Below, piece after piece: positions 1,859 to 13,483 of a stretch of DNA of 64,000 bases. Both the position numbers and the translations under genes were made by a program. Source of the DNA: Marinobacterium profundum (GTDB taxonomy: Bacteria > Pseudomonadota > Gammaproteobacteria > Pseudomonadales > Balneatricaceae); the NCBI RefSeq assembly GCF_001528745.1, contig NZ_BCNS01000018.1:62001-126000 (forward strand), written 5' to 3'. Each line of letters starts with the position of its first letter. Position 1 is the stretch's first letter. The notes under the pieces were generated by a model that was given only the letters and a program-made list of their open reading frames with translations, did no database searches and had not been told where the DNA came from.

Positions 1859-1891
1859 CGCTTAAGGCCGGCCTGGGGCCGGCCTTAAGCG
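1859..1891 (-). terminator. Inter-cistronic hairpin between tctC and tctB
   Basis: A perfect 15-bp inverted repeat (arm CGCTTAAGGCCGGCC) with a 3-nt loop lies in the 157-bp gap between tctC and tctB. There is no long T-run after it, so it is more likely a partial terminator or an RNA-stabilising 3' structure than a full stop. That would give more binding protein than permease from one transcript, as is common for binding-protein-dependent systems. Confidence 0.6.
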
Positions 1892-6245: not shown

Positions 6246-6580
6246 CCCTCGGTCTTCTAAGTAAGTTAAGTAAGGCTATCTGCACCTTGATCGAGGATGT
6301 GGTGCCGCTGACGGGGTAACGAAGAGTTATGACGTGAGGACAGGGAAGTCCGCATCGTTCAATAAGCAAGCGGCAAGCTCCGTTTGAGTATCTCAGTGAG
6401 CTATTGTGATGGCATCCGGCTATTTGTAAATGGGCGCCTCTATAGATAGGTGGTGGGCTGGATAGTAATTGCTGCCATATGTAGCAAATCTAGGCCGACA
6501 TTTATTACGCGGGCGCTCCAGTCCATTACTTTCAAAATTCCAACAAAAAAGGCCACCTTTCGGTGACCTTCGTTGTCGAT
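6246..6580. other. Noncoding flank next to attL
   Basis: 335 bp between the FlgO-like gene and the island's left boundary. Apart from the hairpin terminator at 6545-6568 it holds nothing I recognise. It would have been the sequence directly downstream of ssrA before the island inserted. Confidence 0.5.
6545..6568 (-). terminator. Original ssrA terminator, now displaced
   Basis: On the minus strand a 7-bp stem GGTCACC-GAAA-GGTGGCC (one U-G pair) is followed by TTTTTT, a classic intrinsic terminator. On the plus strand the same stem has a C-A mismatch, so it is built for minus-strand transcription. It sits 13 bp outside attL; without the island it would be immediately downstream of the ssrA 3' end. 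I infer that it is the native ssrA terminator, now about 6.5 kb from its gene. Confidence 0.75.
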
Positions 6581-6608
6581 ATTTGGTGGAGGTGGCGGGT
6601 TTCGAACC
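6581..6608. repeat. attL core (28-bp direct repeat)
   Basis: 28 bp identical to 13122-13149. It corresponds to the T-loop, T-stem and acceptor end of ssrA plus three flanking bases. Sequence diverges immediately on both sides, which marks the exact crossover segment. This copy is the island-left junction; no further ssrA sequence follows it. Confidence 0.92.
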
Positions 6609-6645
6609 TTTCATATTGCCCTACTTATCATATGGTTAGCTTCAG

Positions 6646-7620
6646 CTAGGCCGGAGTTGTGTCTTCTTTTTTTCCAAGCGTATCTACAGAGTCCCGATAT
6701 GATACGTGCCCCATTATTTTTGGCTTGTCTGCTGGAGAAATTTTATCATTCCGTAGCAAATGTTCATATGCGCGTATTCTATTTCTATATCTTTTTCCAA
6801 GCTTTGGTCTATTACTATTTACTAATAGGCCATGTACCTTCAAATGGTCTTTTCTATCTGAGTAGAACTCTTTTCCTGGTGCTAGCTTCCATCCAGCAGA
6901 TTCTATCTCATCTTTGATGGCGCTCGATAGCTGGGATGGTTTATTACCAGTTCCCGAAAAAACAATGTCGTCGGCGTATCGGGTGTATGTTAATTCGTAA
7001 TTTTTTGCGATTTCGCAAAGATTATTATCCACATTTTTAAATACAATATTAGAAAGGCATGGGCTCAACGGTGACCCCTGAGCAAGGCACGACTCGAAAG
7101 AAGATATTTTTGATATTAGATCTGCTGCTTTCTCGGAATATCCAATATCAATCAATCCGAGTCGGACTTTTTCTATTGTAGTAGAAGGGAAGAAGTCCTT
7201 TATATCAACTGAGTATACCCAATCTGAACCGCAGTGTTTTGACGCGGCTAATATATGTGACTTTTTCTTTACGAAACCATACACGCATTCATTAAAGTTA
7301 ACCGAGCTTGATATATGATGCGCCAACCACTTCTGTATTATTTTTATAGATACCCTTGGAGAGTGAATTATTCTTTTCTTTTTTCCAGTGCTAATAATAA
7401 ACGTGCGATAATATTTTTCAGGTTTATTAGTCATCGAATATATGAATGGTATGCTAAACCCAGTTAGAGTTGATAATACCTGTATTGATACAAGTGGGGG
7501 TAGCTTATTTTTAAATAGGCTTGCTATTTCGTTTTCTTTTGAATGTCTCGTTTCCTCATCTAGCGAGGAAATGAGCTGATCCAATGTTGTAAAAGAAAAA
7601 AGGAGTGGTGGAATATTCAT
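6646..7620 (-). CDS. Retron-type reverse transcriptase
   Basis: 324-residue reverse transcriptase of the size typical for retrons. Motifs in order: a basic RT1/2 region (KKKRIIHSP, 80-88), a retron NAxxH-like motif in the variant AASKH (125-129), catalytic VDIKDFF (138-144), QGSPLSPCLSN (181-191), catalytic YADD (215-218), and the retron VTG-type motif in the variant VHGLLVN (262-268), followed by a basic RYRNRIRAYEHLL thumb-like segment. There is no maturase or endonuclease domain, arguing against a group II intron. It is AT-rich unlike the chromosome. The ATG at 7620 has no clear ribosome site but a TATAAT hexamer lies just upstream. The gene follows a 167-bp gap with a strong stem-loop, the expected place for the msr-msd RNA that primes and templates msDNA synthesis. 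Last gene before attL. Confidence 0.9.
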   Translation of the reverse strand: MNIPPLLFSFTTLDQLISSLDEETRHSKENEIASLFKNKLPPLVSIQVLSTLTGFSIPFIYSMTNKPEKYYRTFIISTGKKKRIIHSPRVSIKIIQKWLAHHISSSVNFNECVYGFVKKKSHILAASKHCGSDWVYSVDIKDFFPSTTIEKVRLGLIDIGYSEKAADLISKISSFESCLAQGSPLSPCLSNIVFKNVDNNLCEIAKNYELTYTRYADDIVFSGTGNKPSQLSSAIKDEIESAGWKLAPGKEFYSDRKDHLKVHGLLVNSNRPKLGKRYRNRIRAYEHLLRNDKISPADKPKIMGHVSYRDSVDTLGKKEDTTPA

Positions 7621-7787
7621 AGCTTAATTATAGCAAAGTCGGTTGACTTTCGTTGATGACGGCAGTCTATTGGCTGACGTCCCGAAGGGGCGGAGGCCAA
7701 TAGACTGCCGGCCCTTCTGTGGTAAGCCTTCACTAATAGGCATGATGCACACCTGCGTGATCTTTTTCCACCACTCCCGGCCACATT
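7621..7787 (-). ncRNA. Candidate retron msr-msd noncoding RNA
   Basis: The only sizeable gap in the cargo operon lies directly upstream of the reverse transcriptase. On the minus strand it contains, in order, a small hairpin (arms GCCT/AGGC, 7726-7741), a perfect 15-bp stem with 21-nt loop (7660-7710), and a short AAAGTC/GACTTT hairpin (7635-7650). A long unbroken stem preceded by smaller hairpins is how msr-msd RNAs look. I could not find a convincing a1/a2 end-pairing repeat or a definite branching guanosine context, so the ends given are simply the gap limits. Confidence 0.6.
7660..7710 (-). other. Perfect 15-bp stem-loop, putative msd hairpin
   Basis: Arms CGGCAGTCTATTGGC (7660-7674) and its exact reverse complement (7696-7710) enclose a 21-nt GC-rich loop. 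No T-run follows on either strand, so it is not an intrinsic terminator. Position just before the reverse transcriptase start makes an msd template stem the best explanation. Confidence 0.7.
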
Positions 7788-8537
7788 TCACCACTTTTTT
7801 TTAGAGATAGCAAGCGCCCTCTCAATGTCTGAACTAGTGCGCGATGTGCCAGCAGGAACTATCTCTATGCCCAGAGCCGTGAGACTGTAGCCTGCATTTT
7901 TTGAGCGTGTTATGAATTTCTTCTTTCTCAGGTTATCTAGCATTGAATTTAGCCATTTTGGGTCGCAGTAGAACAGTTCGTGAAGATTAATTTCTACGTT
8001 TAAATCATCTAAAGATATTGGTTGTAGTATCTTTATTTTCTTGAGAATAAATGCCTTTGTTGGCTTTGTTTTTTCCGGTGAAACCCAAAGTATATTCTCG
8101 GGTTTCAAACTAGAAAGATTAATTAGTTCTTTGACTTTTCTTTCTATTTCGATCTTTTTGTCTATAGGGAAATTTCCAGTTTCTATTATTATTGTTTGCC
8201 TGTCTCTTTCGCCTGTTATCGATATCGATTCGACTGAATGTGGAAAATCTTGATGAATAATTGTTAAAAATGAATCTTCTAGATCTTGATGATTTGCCCC
8301 CTCTATTTTTATTGTTTCTATATCAATTTCAAGATCTTTAAATATCCTTCTTTTTAAGTATGATATTTGCCGATTAGATGCAGTGTTATTTTTGTACTCT
8401 TTAGAGGTAATATCAAATGATACATATATGACAACCTTCCCAGAGAGTGGGTTTGTTTTTACTTCACGAACGTATGGAAATTTCTTTCTAGAAAGAAATG
8501 ATTTAACAATGGATAGATCTTCAGAGTCCGAGCTCAC
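7788..8537 (-). CDS. Retron-associated protein with C-terminal winged-helix-like region (unknown function)
   Basis: 249 residues; family not recognised. The first two thirds appear to contain two alpha/beta units, each a hydrophobic strand, a charged helix and another strand (VVIYVSFDI with YLKRRIFKDLEID, then TIIIETGNF with IERKVKELINLS). Residues about 170-232 look like a winged helix: helices around ILKKIKIL, LHELFY and WLNSMLDNLRKKKFI, then ITRSKNAGYSLTALGIEI as the wing. GTG start at 8537 with a strong AAGGAGG site 7 bp away; it overlaps the end of the HEPN-like gene by 17 bp, implying coupled translation. Low GC. Possible roles are DNA-binding partner, msDNA sensor or antitoxin for the HEPN protein; none is shown by sequence. 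Confidence 0.75.
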   Translation of the reverse strand: MSSDSEDLSIVKSFLSRKKFPYVREVKTNPLSGKVVIYVSFDITSKEYKNNTASNRQISYLKRRIFKDLEIDIETIKIEGANHQDLEDSFLTIIHQDFPHSVESISITGERDRQTIIIETGNFPIDKKIEIERKVKELINLSSLKPENILWVSPEKTKPTKAFILKKIKILQPISLDDLNVEINLHELFYCDPKWLNSMLDNLRKKKFITRSKNAGYSLTALGIEIVPAGTSRTSSDIERALAISKKKW

Positions 8538-9009
8538 TCCATACCCTCCTTATTGTTTTGCAATATGCGGATGCTTTTGCAGGCCACTTCTCAGCGGTAC
8601 TTAGAGAGCATTCGTCGATGATGAAGCTATATGATTTTATATTAATTTTATAGTTTGGCTCGTAGTCTGCAATTTCTCTGATGTTTCGAGCAGTAGTAAG
8701 TATGGTCGCCAAGCTACCTATACTGCTCGTCACAGTATTTTTTAATTTGTATGCTTCACTAGATTTCAATAGTCCATTTAATTCTTGTTTTCTTATCTCT
8801 GCATGTATTCTTCTCTTAATTTTTCCAGAGAGGAGGCTTGGTATATTTGCGTGTCCTTTTTCATCTATTCCAACTTCAGAAAGCATTTCTCTAGCTTTCC
8901 AGTATACGCTATAGTAATAGCGATTGAAGGCGCTTCTACAGAATAGCTCTGCATCGTTGCCATTATTCTCGTTAGCTAGCTGTGTAAGTGCGTCACCAAC
9001 TATTTTCAA
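8521..9009 (-). CDS. HEPN-like domain protein, candidate retron effector
   Basis: 162-residue all-helical protein resembling HEPN-type proteins: an N-terminal helix with RSAFNRYYYSVYWKAREML (25-43), His53, a middle basic segment, and ARNIREIADYE (107-117), which matches the C-terminal 'R..ADY' pattern of several HEPN families. Many HEPN proteins are RNases in toxin-antitoxin, abortive-infection and CRISPR systems. The canonical R-x4-6-H catalytic motif is not evident, so nuclease activity is uncertain. TTG start at 9009 preceded by AGGGAG; the next gene overlaps its 3' end. It begins 26 bp after the integrase stop, suggesting read-through from the integrase transcript. AT-rich, like the other cargo genes. 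Confidence 0.7.
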   Translation of the reverse strand: MKIVGDALTQLANENNGNDAELFCRSAFNRYYYSVYWKAREMLSEVGIDEKGHANIPSLLSGKIKRRIHAEIRKQELNGLLKSSEAYKLKNTVTSSIGSLATILTTARNIREIADYEPNYKINIKSYSFIIDECSLSTAEKWPAKASAYCKTIRRVWSELGL

Positions 9010-9035
9010 CTCATAACTCCCTATCGAGCGTGTTT

Positions 9036-10124
9036 CTAATTACCGGTTGAAGCCGGTATCCATCTTCCATATGTTTTTCGGATCATTCCCCAATCCTTAT
9101 GTCCCATCTGTTGAGCCACCCAAAGAGGATTCTTACCAGCGGACAATAGCATTGATGCAAAGGTATGTCTTGTCTGGTACGGGTTCCTGTAAGTCACGTC
9201 TGCGGCGTTGAGCGCCGGTATCCAGAGGCGCTTACGAATGATGTGATCGCCGGCCCAGGGTGTGTCTGATGAGGGGTCATGAAAGACTCGCAATGACTGA
9301 CCATTGCAAGTCGCTTGGGCTTCTATAGCTTCCCGTGCCTTGGGCTGTAGTTCCACTGTTCGCAGTCCTGATACGGTCTTGGTCGTCTTTTCACGTTTCC
9401 GAACGATGGCAGTGCGGATATGGACTCTATTGTTTGGTAAGTCCACATCTTGCCAGCGAAGCGCAATCAGTTCAGATGTGCGAAGGCCTGACCAGAATGC
9501 AAACTGTATAAGGTTGCGGCACTGTCCCTCCAACTGGTTTAGTATTCGATTGATTTCATCCTGGTTGAAGGGCTGAGGTTCACGGGTTTCGGGCGAGAGG
9601 TAGCGGAATCGGTCCATTGGATTTTGTTCAATGATGCCATCATAGAAGGCGTCTTGCAGCGCTTGGCGTAGCGGGCCAAGCACATTGTTGATCCGCTTGT
9701 TCGAAATGTTTATCTCATCCAGCCAGTCATAGACATAAGAAACATTGAAATCTTCTAGCGTGATTTGGCCGAACGCCGGAATGAGATGGTAATAAATTGC
9801 ACTGTTATAATCTCTGATAGTACTGTGTTGGCAACGCATCTCTGCCTTCTTGATCCATTGTTTTAGAGTTTCCTCGACAGTGACGAGAGCGCTCTTGTTC
9901 TTTGAAAATTTCAGGGCGTTCTTGCTATTGGGAAAGTGCTTTCCATAGTCGAAGTTTCCCATCGCTATCTCGAATAGAATAGCTTCTCGCTTACGAACGG
10001 CTTCCCTCACTGCCGTTTTTGTTGGTTTAATACGTAGAGACTCGCGGCAGCGAGTCCCGTTAAAGTTGAAGTCAATCACGATGCTGTTTCCGCGTGGACG
10101 GACGCCTGGGAAGTCTATACCCAT
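9036..10124 (-). CDS. int: Tyrosine recombinase (island integrase)
   Basis: 362-residue phage-type integrase expected to catalyse recombination at the ssrA core. The N-terminus (PGVRPRGNSIVIDFNFNG) resembles the arm-binding domain of DUF3596-type integrases; a SAM-like core-binding domain spans about 80-170. The catalytic domain shows RTSELIALRW (first Arg), TRHTFASMLL (His-x-x-Arg box region with Arg/His), GHKDWGMIRKTYGRW with the final His and the nucleophilic Tyr. It overlaps the preceding small gene by 10 bp, so it belongs to the island's main operon. It sits in the middle of the island, with the cargo between it and attL, which suggests the cargo was inserted between integrase and attachment site. 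Confidence 0.95.
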   Translation of the reverse strand: MGIDFPGVRPRGNSIVIDFNFNGTRCRESLRIKPTKTAVREAVRKREAILFEIAMGNFDYGKHFPNSKNALKFSKNKSALVTVEETLKQWIKKAEMRCQHSTIRDYNSAIYYHLIPAFGQITLEDFNVSYVYDWLDEINISNKRINNVLGPLRQALQDAFYDGIIEQNPMDRFRYLSPETREPQPFNQDEINRILNQLEGQCRNLIQFAFWSGLRTSELIALRWQDVDLPNNRVHIRTAIVRKREKTTKTVSGLRTVELQPKAREAIEAQATCNGQSLRVFHDPSSDTPWAGDHIIRKRLWIPALNAADVTYRNPYQTRHTFASMLLSAGKNPLWVAQQMGHKDWGMIRKTYGRWIPASTGN

Positions 10125-10423
10125 TCTTTGATTTCTCCTTCAACCGGTGTGACGAAGAAATGAGTCGGCGTTTCAAAGAGATAGCAAATTATAGTCGCTC
10201 TCTTTGTATAGCCTTGCTTAGCCTTCTTTGCGCTGTGGAGCTTTTTGAAGCGGAATGCAAGCTCAGGCCTAATAGTCCAGTACCAGCTATACAAATAGTC
10301 ATTCTCGTTAAAGGAGTGGAGGTATTCGTCCGATCTTTCTTCATTGATTACGTAACCAAGGCACTTTGTTCCGCCGGGAAGGCTGAACTCTTTCTTCAAT
10401 CGCTCTTGTGCTAATCTATCCAT
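10115..10423 (-). CDS. Small conserved island protein between xis and int
   Basis: 102 residues beginning MDRLAQERLKKEF; a GGAGAGA ribosome site lies 5-11 bp before the ATG. Rich in aromatic and basic residues (ENDYLYSWYWTIRPELAFRFKKL), no transmembrane segment or recognised domain. It starts 12 bp after the excisionase-like gene and overlaps the integrase start, so all three are likely co-translated. Position suggests a role with recombination or its control, but that is only inference from context. Confidence 0.7.
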   Translation of the reverse strand: MDRLAQERLKKEFSLPGGTKCLGYVINEERSDEYLHSFNENDYLYSWYWTIRPELAFRFKKLHSAKKAKQGYTKRATIICYLFETPTHFFVTPVEGEIKEWV

Positions 10424-10435
10424 TTTTATCTCTCC

Positions 10436-10612
10436 TCAAACGCCTGTTAGAAGCCACTTTTCTAGTGCCTGGATGTTGATAAGAACGCGACCGTTAGGCG
10501 CCTTTATCCAGTGTATCTTTTCGCGCAATACACCTTTCTTTTTCAGAGCGCGTAGAGATTCTTGGGACATGCCTGTTTCTTCAGATATTTTCTGAATCGT
10601 TTTCCAGTTCAT
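10436..10612 (-). CDS. Excisionase-like helix-turn-helix protein (58 aa)
   Basis: Short gene encoding a 58-residue protein starting MNWKTIQKISEETG, with a helix-turn-helix (KISEETGMSQESLRALKKKG) and the segment KIHWIKAPNGRVLINIQALEKW, the pattern seen in excisionase/AlpA-type winged-helix proteins of phages and islands. Its ATG overlaps the stop of the preceding gene (ATGA, 10609-10612). It lies one gene upstream of the integrase. Expected role: recombination directionality factor, and possibly a transcription regulator of the island. Confidence 0.85.
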   Translation of the reverse strand: MNWKTIQKISEETGMSQESLRALKKKGVLREKIHWIKAPNGRVLINIQALEKWLLTGV

Positions 10613-10881
10613 CGGTTGATTTCCTTAAGACGTGCGAAAGCCTCCCGGTTCTTTTTCAAGAACAGGATGGGATCGGTAGTTAGGTTAAGTTTTAAAGTGT
10701 TTGGGCAGTTGCCCGAAGGGAAGATCTTAAAGTTTTCAGTCGGAGTCAGATGACTCGTAACCCGTAAACTTGTTTCCGAATCTAGCTGATAAAAATTGTT
10801 TTGTAAATAGTCTGGACCGGTCTCCAGTAAATATATTTTGGTGGTATTGGTGATCAAGGTAAAGCTGTCGCTTTGCGACAT
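10609..10881 (-). CDS. Island hypothetical protein (90 aa)
   Basis: Predicted 90-residue protein starting MSQSDSFTLITNTT with a GGTGAAG ribosome site directly upstream. The reading frame extends further upstream to 11070, but that part is proline/arginine-rich and runs through a GC-rich hairpin, so I take the internal ATG at 10881. No domain recognised. It is rich in Thr, Asn and Leu, and its stop overlaps the start of the excisionase-like gene, indicating translational coupling. Base composition is lower in GC than gpA upstream. Confidence 0.6.
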   Translation of the reverse strand: MSQSDSFTLITNTTKIYLLETGPDYLQNNFYQLDSETSLRVTSHLTPTENFKIFPSGNCPNTLKLNLTTDPILFLKKNREAFARLKEINR

Positions 10882-10930
10882 CTTCACCTTATTCCATTCT
10901 ATCTTGCTCCGTGGCGGTAAAGGATTGCCA

Positions 10931-10969
10931 CGACCGGTTCCTCCCCGCAAGCGGGGGCCCCTCCGGTCG
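10931..10969. other. Nested GC-rich hairpin in island
   Basis: Outer arms CGACCGG / CCGGTCG enclose an inner perfect hairpin CCCCGC-AA-GCGGGG. It lies in the 134-bp gap between two small island genes. It has no T-run, so a simple terminator is unlikely; an attenuator or a single-strand replication origin for the gpA system are alternatives. Confidence 0.55.
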
Positions 10970-11015
10970 AGTCCCTCCTTGACCTTAAGCTTGACCATCT
11001 GAGCGCTACTCGGGT

Positions 11016-11309
11016 TTAGTGCTCTGAGACAGGGGCGCCCGTATCGTTGAGCAGCAGGTAATCCCCGCACAGTTCAGTTTTTACCAGTTGCTCCATGCTA
11101 TCGGCGAAACGAACCAGGATTTCTATCTCGTCGTTCATGGTTAGCACACCACAGACGACCCCGATGGCTTCGATTGGAGGTGCTGGCAGCGTGTCCCGAT
11201 CTTCTAGGCGGATCACTTCCCTGTTAACCAATGCGAATGCCTCCTGGAGTTCAAAGCTCAGTTCCGGATTCCAGTCACCAACCGTTGTCATTTCGTATTC
11301 TTCGCCCAC
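11016..11309 (-). CDS. Small island protein downstream of gpA
   Basis: 97-residue acidic protein (MGEEYEMTTVGDWNPELSF...), GTG start at 11309 with a GGAG site; an ATG six codons further in is an alternative. No recognised domain. It follows the gpA-type gene by 40 bp, on the same strand. Small acidic genes in this position are common in P2-like elements, but I cannot assign a function. Confidence 0.6.
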   Translation of the reverse strand: MGEEYEMTTVGDWNPELSFELQEAFALVNREVIRLEDRDTLPAPPIEAIGVVCGVLTMNDEIEILVRFADSMEQLVKTELCGDYLLLNDTGAPVSEH

Positions 11310-11349
11310 TTTTCTATCTCCGATTTGTTCGGTTCTTCACTGCGTACAC

Positions 11350-13161
11350 TTATTGACACAAGTCCAAGACAGGCCGCATTCGCGCCCTGTGTCCGGAGTC
11401 CACAGGGGGCGAATGCGCTCCACCTGTGACTAATTTCCAAAGGCGAGTGCGGGTGACAATCCGCGTGCTATCAGCAAGCAGTCCGATGATGCGAGGTGCT
11501 TTCGGGTCGCCGTACACGGTAATCGCGTCTGTATCCACTTCGCCGGTTTCTGGGTCGAATGGTTGCTTGCGTTCATACAGTGACTGGATGGGTCGCAATA
11601 CCCGCCGCATGATCGGCCCGCCCATGACCATAACGAATGCAGCCCACTCCGAAGCATCAGCCGCCAGCGTTGCTTGCTGGACAACCACGGGGGAAGGGGC
11701 TTCTTGTTCAGATCGGGCGAGCCTTCGAAGTTCTCGCCAGACTGTGACGCTGGGGCCGCCGATAAACTGAAACTGGCGGATATTGAAGGTACTTGCCCAG
11801 GCGTCGATTGCCCTGGCAGACTCTTTCGCATCCTGACCGTTTTTATCAACGTCCAGGTACTCGCCGTCGATGTTCTTGGCGATGTACTTTGCGACGTAGC
11901 CGGCAGCACTGCCGCGATTTGGGTCTATAGCCTTTGCGGTGAAGCGATGTTTGGCAGCGCCTTTTTCGTCCGGATTGCTGCGCAGTGCATAGTCGTGAAA
12001 AATGCCGCGCACCTCGTCGCACTTGGATGGCTCCATGAACAACAGCAGGTGCCAATGCGGTGTGCCGTCGTGGTTGGGTTCCACAACACGGATGCCATAG
12101 ACATGCAGGCCATTGCGATGCAGTTTGGCGCGGATACATTGGAATAGGTTGGTCAGGTATTGGTGCGCTTGATCGGGAGTTGTGCCGTCGTATCGTGGGT
12201 TTTTCCCGCCGCGCTTTAGCCTGGCGTGCATCCGCGATGGTGTGGTGATGGTGTAAAACTCGCCGCAGTGTCCCAGGTGTTGTGCGACTAGCTCAAAGCC
12301 TTTTATTCTGGTCATCAATTCAGCCCGACGTACTGCGGGATTAGCGACGGACTTATCGTGTAGCTCCTTGAGGCTGAACTGGTCGCCAGCATCGTTCTCG
12401 ATATAGGTGTTTTCCAGGTACGCAGCATTGCGCTCTTTCTGGCGTTTTCTTGCCGCCTTTGTAAAGCGGCTGGAGTAGGCCGAGCGCTGCGAACAGACCA
12501 ACCCTATATCTCTAGCGATTGATTCGATGGTGCGCCGCTGTAGCCCCAGCACTTTACGCATCCACCACCGTTCGCTGCACATGCGCTTGATGCAGGGGTA
12601 AAGATCGCCCTGGAAGTCTTTCGGGCTTGGGGCTGTCAGCTTGTATTGCTGTACGAGGTTGCTGGTCCAGTCGAATGCCGCCGCTGAATAGCGGTTGTGT
12701 TCAGCCACAGTCGTGCACTCCTGTGCCCGCCTGCGGCAGAATCGCTTAATGTCGTCCAATTCGGCAGAGAGGTTCAGGTCTTGGATGGACAGACGGCTGT
12801 CGATACCGAGCAGACTGCGGTTAGCTTCGACGTAACTGCTTTCCTGAACAGCAAGGAGATAGCCACCGGCCAGCTCTGGCACCAGGGCTTCATGCTTGAG
12901 AAAGATGCGCTTGCGGAAGTCGTGGCACTCGTGGGTGCCATAGTCACGGAGCAGGTCACAGGCCGCATCAGCGGAATGCTGTGACGAAGTTGTGACGAGA
13001 TTGTGCCAAACCGGGGACCGGTGTGGACCATTGGAGACTAGTTGGGAATTCTGGGGAGGGGGACTACAGGCCGCATGGTTGCTGGCCTGTAGTGGTCTGG
13101 AGCGGTCTAGGCCGTTCCTGCATTTGGTGGAGGTGGCGGGTTTCGAACCCGCGTCCGCCAA
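11350..13161 (-). CDS. P2 gpA-family rolling-circle replication endonuclease
   Basis: Replication initiator that nicks its own origin and stays covalently bound to the 5' end. Up to 603 residues from the TTG at 13161. Family motifs: RRAELMTRIKGFE (278-290), TITTPSRMH (304-312), VYGIRVVEPNHDGTPHWHLLLF (354-375) with the metal-binding HWH at 369-371, and GYVAKYIAKNIDG (421-433) with the two catalytic tyrosines Y422 and Y426, equivalent to Y450/Y454 of P2 gpA. The region DAWASTFNIRQFQFIGGPSV also matches P2. The N-terminal ~65 residues are Pro/Ser/Asn-rich and unlike the family, and no ATG occurs before the conserved part, so the true start is unclear. The frame starts inside ssrA and crosses the attachment core. 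First gene of the island operon. Confidence 0.92.
   Translation of the reverse strand: MADAGSKPATSTKCRNGLDRSRPLQASNHAACSPPPQNSQLVSNGPHRSPVWHNLVTTSSQHSADAACDLLRDYGTHECHDFRKRIFLKHEALVPELAGGYLLAVQESSYVEANRSLLGIDSRLSIQDLNLSAELDDIKRFCRRRAQECTTVAEHNRYSAAAFDWTSNLVQQYKLTAPSPKDFQGDLYPCIKRMCSERWWMRKVLGLQRRTIESIARDIGLVCSQRSAYSSRFTKAARKRQKERNAAYLENTYIENDAGDQFSLKELHDKSVANPAVRRAELMTRIKGFELVAQHLGHCGEFYTITTPSRMHARLKRGGKNPRYDGTTPDQAHQYLTNLFQCIRAKLHRNGLHVYGIRVVEPNHDGTPHWHLLLFMEPSKCDEVRGIFHDYALRSNPDEKGAAKHRFTAKAIDPNRGSAAGYVAKYIAKNIDGEYLDVDKNGQDAKESARAIDAWASTFNIRQFQFIGGPSVTVWRELRRLARSEQEAPSPVVVQQATLAADASEWAAFVMVMGGPIMRRVLRPIQSLYERKQPFDPETGEVDTDAITVYGDPKAPRIIGLLADSTRIVTRTRLWKLVTGGAHSPPVDSGHRARMRPVLDLCQ
11375..11417. 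repeat. 17-bp inverted repeat near the end of gpA, candidate replication origin
   Basis: Arms 11375-11391 (CGCATTCGCGCCCTGTG) and 11401-11417 match as reverse complements at 16 of 17 positions around a 9-nt loop. It lies within the last codons of the gpA-like gene. Rolling-circle origins commonly adopt cruciforms, and P2-related phages keep their origin inside the A gene, so this is a candidate double-strand origin. It could also act as a structured 3' end of the coding region. Confidence 0.5.
13122..13149. repeat. attR core within ssrA (28-bp direct repeat)
   Basis: Identical to 6581-6608. It covers the 3' end of ssrA (13125-13149) and three bases beyond, so the insertion leaves the tmRNA gene intact. 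Sequence left of 13122 is island, right of 13149 is native ssrA. Confidence 0.92.
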
Positions 13162-13483
13162 TCCTCTGCCTTAAGATCTACATGCTTAGGCATCTCAATT
13201 AAATTAACCCGTCGCGACCCGAGAGCCAGGGTGCTGTGGGCGAGCCTCTTTAGTTTTAACCGTTCAGCTTGAGACAAAGCATCCAGGCGATTCTGTCTCC
13301 AATGACACCGCAAAACCTCTGAGTTACAGACACCTTAGAGAGCGGCGCTAGCGGCCTTAAGCTGCTAGAGCGTAGTTATCGTCGTTAGCAACTATAACTG
13401 TGTAGTGACGGATTTACGAGATTCACTACAAACTCGACATGCACCCAAGGGTTCGTAATCAGCGTCGAAGCCAAGTCACCCCC
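13125..13483 (-). ncRNA. ssrA: tmRNA
   Basis: Transfer-messenger RNA that rescues stalled ribosomes with SmpB. The 5' end GGGGGUGACUUGGCUUCGACGC and the 3' end with T-arm GGTTCGAAACCC, acceptor and encoded CCA pair to form the tRNA-like domain. The tag reading frame (13357-13389) reads ANDDNYALAA followed by TAA, as in pseudomonads. Length about 359 nt. A TATACT hexamer at 13496-13501 is a plausible -10 element. smpB lies 98 bp upstream on the same strand. The 3' end is the integration site of the island, so the native terminator is no longer adjacent. Confidence 0.97.
13357..13389 (-). other. tmRNA proteolysis-tag reading frame
   Basis: Codons GCT AAC GAC GAT AAC TAC GCT CTA GCA GCT then TAA encode ANDDNYALAA, the degradation tag added to stalled peptides. 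The last residues LAA are the ClpXP recognition element. Confidence 0.95.

Follow-up and report, generated by a model that had tools for sequence, protein, structure and literature searches.

A probable msd template hairpin within a type IX retron of Marinobacterium profundum

The retron operon and the element that carries it

The stretch of DNA analysed here (hereafter the window) comprises 64 kb of a Marinobacterium profundum contig, and all positions refer to it. On the minus strand it contains an operon in the order HEPN – winged helix – ncRNA gap – RT, in which the three reading frames are intact and the three proteins match both type IX retron profiles and the protein chains of PDB 36ht (retron-Kva2). 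The first gene (8521-9009) encodes a putative effector or toxin, a HEPN RNase of 162 aa (PADLOC HEPN_IX, 3.7e-57; Kva2 HEPN, 36ht_I, 3.7e-19). It is followed by the gene of a 249-aa winged-helix (WH) protein (7788-8537; HTH_IX, 1.6e-68; Kva2 WH, 36ht_B, 2.5e-17) and by that of a 324-aa retron reverse transcriptase (RT) with a YADD active site (6646-7620; RT_IX, 6.3e-139; Kva2 RT, 36ht_A, 9.2e-74). The RT also matches many other retron RT profiles of PADLOC, as well as the Ec86 and Ec67 RTs in PDB, and can be placed in the retron clade with its YADD centre.

In the residue alignment, Y31-33, H53 and R111 of the HEPN protein correspond to the active-site residues Y40-42, H64 and R122 of Kva2, and they are invariant among seven aligned relatives. 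The Kva2 preprint (PMC13405049) describes an msdDNA tip held by the WH residues D190, N193, D197, R200 and K201. Four of these five are kept in the window protein, where N197, D201, R204 and K205 align with Kva2 N193, D197, R200 and K201, while D190 is replaced by K194. The presence of HEPN and WH genes in the RT operon, together with a HEPN active site of the non-canonical kind (YYY, H, R), agrees with type IX, and on these matches we assign the retron to this already described class.

The operon is located in a 6.5-kb mobile element (6581-13149) delimited by exact 28-bp direct repeats (6581-6608 and 13122-13149), the second of which overlaps the 3' end of the tmRNA gene (ssrA, 13125-13483). 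In addition, the element encodes a tyrosine integrase (9036-10124) and a phage gpA-type replication protein (11350-13161). An intrinsic-terminator-like site is found behind the RT gene (6548-6571, minus strand). In a congener (L058), this hairpin stands immediately behind the tmRNA gene, so the element has displaced the terminator of the host; the site is the original ssrA terminator, and the retron transcript probably now ends there. By DNA similarity, the retron was absent from the other genomes among the 99 sampled in the family, including the other six of the genus. In a congener (G692, contig C39), two copies of the ssrA attachment repeat (L064 and L060, at 140892 and 155666) were observed 14.8 kb apart, one of them at the tmRNA gene, and they probably delimit another, larger element in the same ssrA site.

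The hairpin and the structured ncRNA around it

The HEPN and WH genes overlap, and the only gap of the operon is formed by the 167 nt between the WH stop codon and the RT ATG. In this gap, the arms 7660-7674 and 7696-7710 form an exact 15-bp inverted repeat with a 21-nt loop on the minus strand. The original prediction had proposed this hairpin as the msd template upstream of the RT. Its coordinates were re-derived without any change; the location in the sole gap, the absence of a T-run beside the hairpin on both strands and the smaller hairpin ahead of it on the minus strand (AGGTGTG-CAT-CATGCCT, 7754-7738) were also corroborated. Perfect inverted repeats this long (15 bp or more, loop no longer than 25 nt) are infrequent, with only one other in the window (1859-1891) and none in eight shuffled windows. 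This second repeat has a loop of 3 nt and lies between the minus-strand genes 1281-1790 and 1948-2916, which resemble a tripartite tricarboxylate transporter pair.

The gap region folds as RNA with a z of -4.4, and the gap together with the a1 and a2 arms reaches -76.9 kcal/mol (z = -7.7). Read along the minus strand, the predicted ncRNA starts with the a1 arm GGAGTGGTGGAA (7766-7777), located 10 nt past the WH stop codon, and continues with the msr stem-loops (7730-7760), for which folding and covariation define an outer helix (UCAC/GUGA) and an inner one (AGGUGUG-CAU-CAUGCCU). Next comes the ACAGAAGG element (7713-7722), conserved in the alignment of related loci described below, and then the msd hairpin (7660-7710), the presumed RNA template of the msdDNA. 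A small conserved hairpin, AAAGUC-AACC-GACUUU (7635-7650), separates msd from the a2 arm UUCCACCACUCC (7602-7613), which is found within RT codons 3-7. The a1 and a2 sequences occur once each in the window. Msr hairpins and a long msd hairpin precede the RT gene, as in a retron ncRNA. Several G's are present near a1, and a further G at 7756 is invariant in the alignment; all of them are candidates for the priming (branching) guanosine expected next to the a1/a2 stem.

The mature msdDNA is predicted, by the Kva2 numbering (A1 = 7659), as a molecule of about 64 nt on the plus strand (7659-7722), with its GAAG tip at 7684-7687, and it folds as DNA at z = -6.7. The hairpin at 7635-7650 falls outside the msdDNA as numbered in Kva2; it was found in most type IX loci and is missing in some relatives.

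Scans of plasmids, viral contigs and genomes yielded another 36 loci that share the gene order and have a WH/RT gap (37 counting the window). The viral-contig relatives were retrieved with the HEPN signature AFNRYYY as query; the scan of viral contigs with the RT alone gave zero matches, as did blastn of the ncRNA against E. coli genomes. The HEPN_IX profile is rare: it was detected in one of 294 genomes of the order, that of the window itself; among 398 genomes of the phylum it was detected in three, one being that of the window and another a weak match.

An alignment of 36 loci (A5) was scored for a structure composed of a1/a2, two msr helices, the msd stem and the small 3' hairpin. Standard pairs occupied 92.6% of the cells, versus 34-43% when the structure was slid and 70.5% after shuffling. 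Compensatory double changes were found in 34 of 43 pairs, and the covariation score was 0.501 versus 0.161 (shuffled) and at most 0.099 (slid). None of 500 shuffles equalled the observed result. The comparison of homologous gaps that had been suggested together with the original prediction therefore gave compensatory changes both in the msd stem, with changes on both sides in all 15 pairs, and in a1/a2 (9 of 12 pairs). The inner msr helix was paired in 100% of the cells, with four double-change pairs, the outer one in 99.1%, and helix 5 (7635-7650) in 91.3%, again with four double-change pairs. The lower value of helix 1 (88.9%) is due to four Kva2-like loci whose a1/a2 columns are out of register in A5. 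It should be noted that the msd stems of several loci contain mismatches. The two msr helices and the msd stem were also recovered in an independent prediction by RNAalifold.

When a covariance model was trained on 35 homologous loci and the window was left out, it matched 7658-7760 on the minus strand with 84.9 bits (E 1.2e-18; next best E 3.6), and this was the only match in the 5.6-Mb genome. The model search originally envisaged was thus successful with our own model, but not with Rfam, where no retron family matched at gathering or permissive thresholds and only chance miRNA and snoRNA matches appeared, probably because type IX ncRNAs are missing from that collection. The covariance model and the 36-sequence alignment constitute a resource for type IX ncRNAs, and the locus provides a complete annotation of a retron whose ncRNA lacks an Rfam family.

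Where the tip is GAAG, it is separated by 30-31 nt from the junction in the ACAGAAGG element in nearly all loci. Other tips were observed in two ncRNAs, one with GAAT (L025) and one from Rhodopirellula with a GC-rich apex (L034); in these cases a different winged helix or trigger may be recognised.

The a1/a2 repeat inside the RT gene

The original prediction had found no clear a1/a2 repeat and named this as its weak point. The repeat does exist, which resolves that point: a perfect 12-bp pairing joins 7777-7766 with 7613-7602, and its score was matched by only two of 3000 shuffles. The repeat had been overlooked because a2 lies in the RT reading frame, beyond the gap, and this position explains why such repeats escape a reading restricted to the gap. 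The same arrangement was found in the 37 loci, in all of which a helix of about 9-18 bp pairs the beginning of the gap with the first RT codons and a2 starts 0-10 nt beyond the A of the RT initiation codon. The pairing was perfect or near-perfect in every case, with a G-U pair in a few helices and an internal mismatch in L019. Cognate arms scored a mean of 15.4, versus 9.5 for permuted partners, and none of 2000 permutations was as high.

A later RT start, which would leave a2 outside the gene, was considered and discarded, as 13 of the 37 RTs have no alternative ATG, GTG or TTG between a2 and the conserved LPP motif. In the window, the only candidate in that interval is a TTG at codon 13. In Ec86/Eco1, a2 ends a few nt ahead of the RT start codon, outside the gene. 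The location of a2 in the RT coding sequence in every type IX locus examined may be what is new here; it was less expected, as was the presence of the retron on an element in ssrA. A statement to that effect was not found in the accessible part of the Kva2 preprint (PMC13405049) or in the retron papers searched, which are a small share of the retron literature.

The position of a2 within the RT codons suggests a competition between the folding of the ncRNA and the translation of the RT, and it implies that the RT start could not be recoded without damage to the ncRNA. Folding of single sequences gave a lower accessibility of the RT start region in the presence of a1 in 34 of 37 loci (mean 0.33 vs 0.48); these predictions lean toward such a competition and are suggestive only. 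A tentative extension, which we regard as possible though rather doubtful, is that a folded (and processed) type IX ncRNA always excludes a translatable RT message, and vice versa, so that RT synthesis would be under autoregulation, either through the folding of the ncRNA or through binding of a1/a2 by the RT, balancing RT, ncRNA and toxin.

Comparison with known retrons and possible role of the hairpin

Retrons are bacterial anti-phage alarms. The closest known counterpart of the window retron is retron-Kva2 of Klebsiella variicola (type IX, PDB 36ht), with which it shares the identical order of HEPN, WH, ncRNA and RT, homologous proteins (E of 9e-74 for RT, 4e-19 for HEPN and 3e-17 for WH) and the conserved HEPN residues mentioned before. 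According to the preprint (PMC13405049), the Kva2 msdDNA has its tip at G26-A27-A28-G29 and its junction at T57-T58-C59-T60. Counting from 7659 on the plus strand, the window reads G26 A27 A28 G29 and T57 T58 C59 T60 exactly, so that the GAAG tip and the TTCT junction occupy equal positions in both retrons. However, the two are distant in sequence, as the WH value of 2.5e-17 indicates; the window msd stem is mispaired over a long stretch beneath the apex, WH D190 is a lysine, and the window retron rides on an ssrA-integrated element.

Types III-A and II provide the next-best RT profiles in PADLOC (RT_III-A, 7e-69; RT_II-A, 2e-58) and have in common the a1/a2, msr and msd plan, but their defining effector genes are absent from the window, which instead has the HEPN and HTH genes of type IX. 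Ec86/Eco1 (PDB 7v9u and others) is related through its RT (1e-28) and through an ncRNA closed by a1/a2 upstream of the RT; its effector differs from that of the window retron.

Taking together the gene content and order, the structure and covariation of the ncRNA, the a1/a2 pairing, the tip and junction, and the active-site and tip-contact residues, we consider that the hairpin is very probably (about 96%) the msd template of a type IX retron, a reading based on sequence comparison. The type IX proteins, the covariation and the match of a covariance model built out of sample all support what had originally been proposed for it.

A hairpin placed between the WH and RT genes of a single operon, with a very stable RNA fold and with promoter and terminator patterns in its vicinity at chance level, might also be expected of an mRNA processing or stability element, or of an attenuator, that is not reverse transcribed. 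This is very improbable here, given that the spacing of 30-31 nt from tip to junction, the GAAG tip conserved in the DNA strand, the msr hairpins and a1/a2 make up a complete retron ncRNA beside a retron RT, and that no T-run follows the hairpin. The lack of a T-run also led us to reject its identification as a terminator or attenuator as such.

The location of the operon inside a 6.5-kb integrated element could point to the inverted repeat as a remnant of recombination or transposition. The attachment repeats of the element (6581-6608 and 13122-13149) are far from the hairpin, however, and the hairpin is conserved at the same operon position across unrelated plasmids, prophages and chromosomes, which refutes that origin and leaves it a negligible probability. 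The absence of the retron from the other sampled genomes of the family could likewise reflect a passing acquisition, now defunct, with an ncRNA that survives without function. This explanation is very improbable, as the three frames are intact, all the catalytic and pairing features examined are preserved, and a1/a2 is perfect in the window although it varied freely across the family.

As the msd template of a type IX retron, the hairpin would take part in the following sequence of events. The minus-strand operon would produce the HEPN RNase, the WH protein, a structured ncRNA (a1, msr, msd, a2) and the RT; a1 and a2 would pair and close the ncRNA, and the RT would prime on an msr guanosine and copy the msd hairpin into an msdDNA of about 64 nt. 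The following steps are transferred from Kva2, the one member for which, in a single preprint (PMC13405049), the type IX mechanism and defence through tRNA cleavage by HEPN are described. In that retron, HEPN is kept as an inactive dimer by the RT, the msDNA and the WH protein. Activation comes from a phage protein that binds DNA and imitates the winged helix: once it has docked on the tip of the msdDNA, the complex opens up and tRNA is cut by HEPN (PMC13405049). By homology, the WH protein would grip the GAAG tip of the window msdDNA and, together with the RT and the msDNA, prevent the HEPN dimer from acting. A phage protein of that kind, on docking at the tip, would then free HEPN, which may cut tRNA and stop growth ahead of phage spread.

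Some of the related loci deserve a separate mention. Type IX retrons that closely resemble Kva2 are carried by four viral contigs (L008, L009, L010 and L050). Two of these, L008 and L009, have a P2-type phage portal-like gene immediately behind the RT gene, on the opposite strand, so the retrons seem to be prophage cargo. In L043 (406-1612), the HEPN and WH proteins are encoded as one continuous frame of about 400 aa, a natural fusion of the effector subunits. Finally, a Betaproteobacteria MAG (L030) contains a full-length type IX-like HEPN gene with no recognisable WH or RT gene adjoining it.
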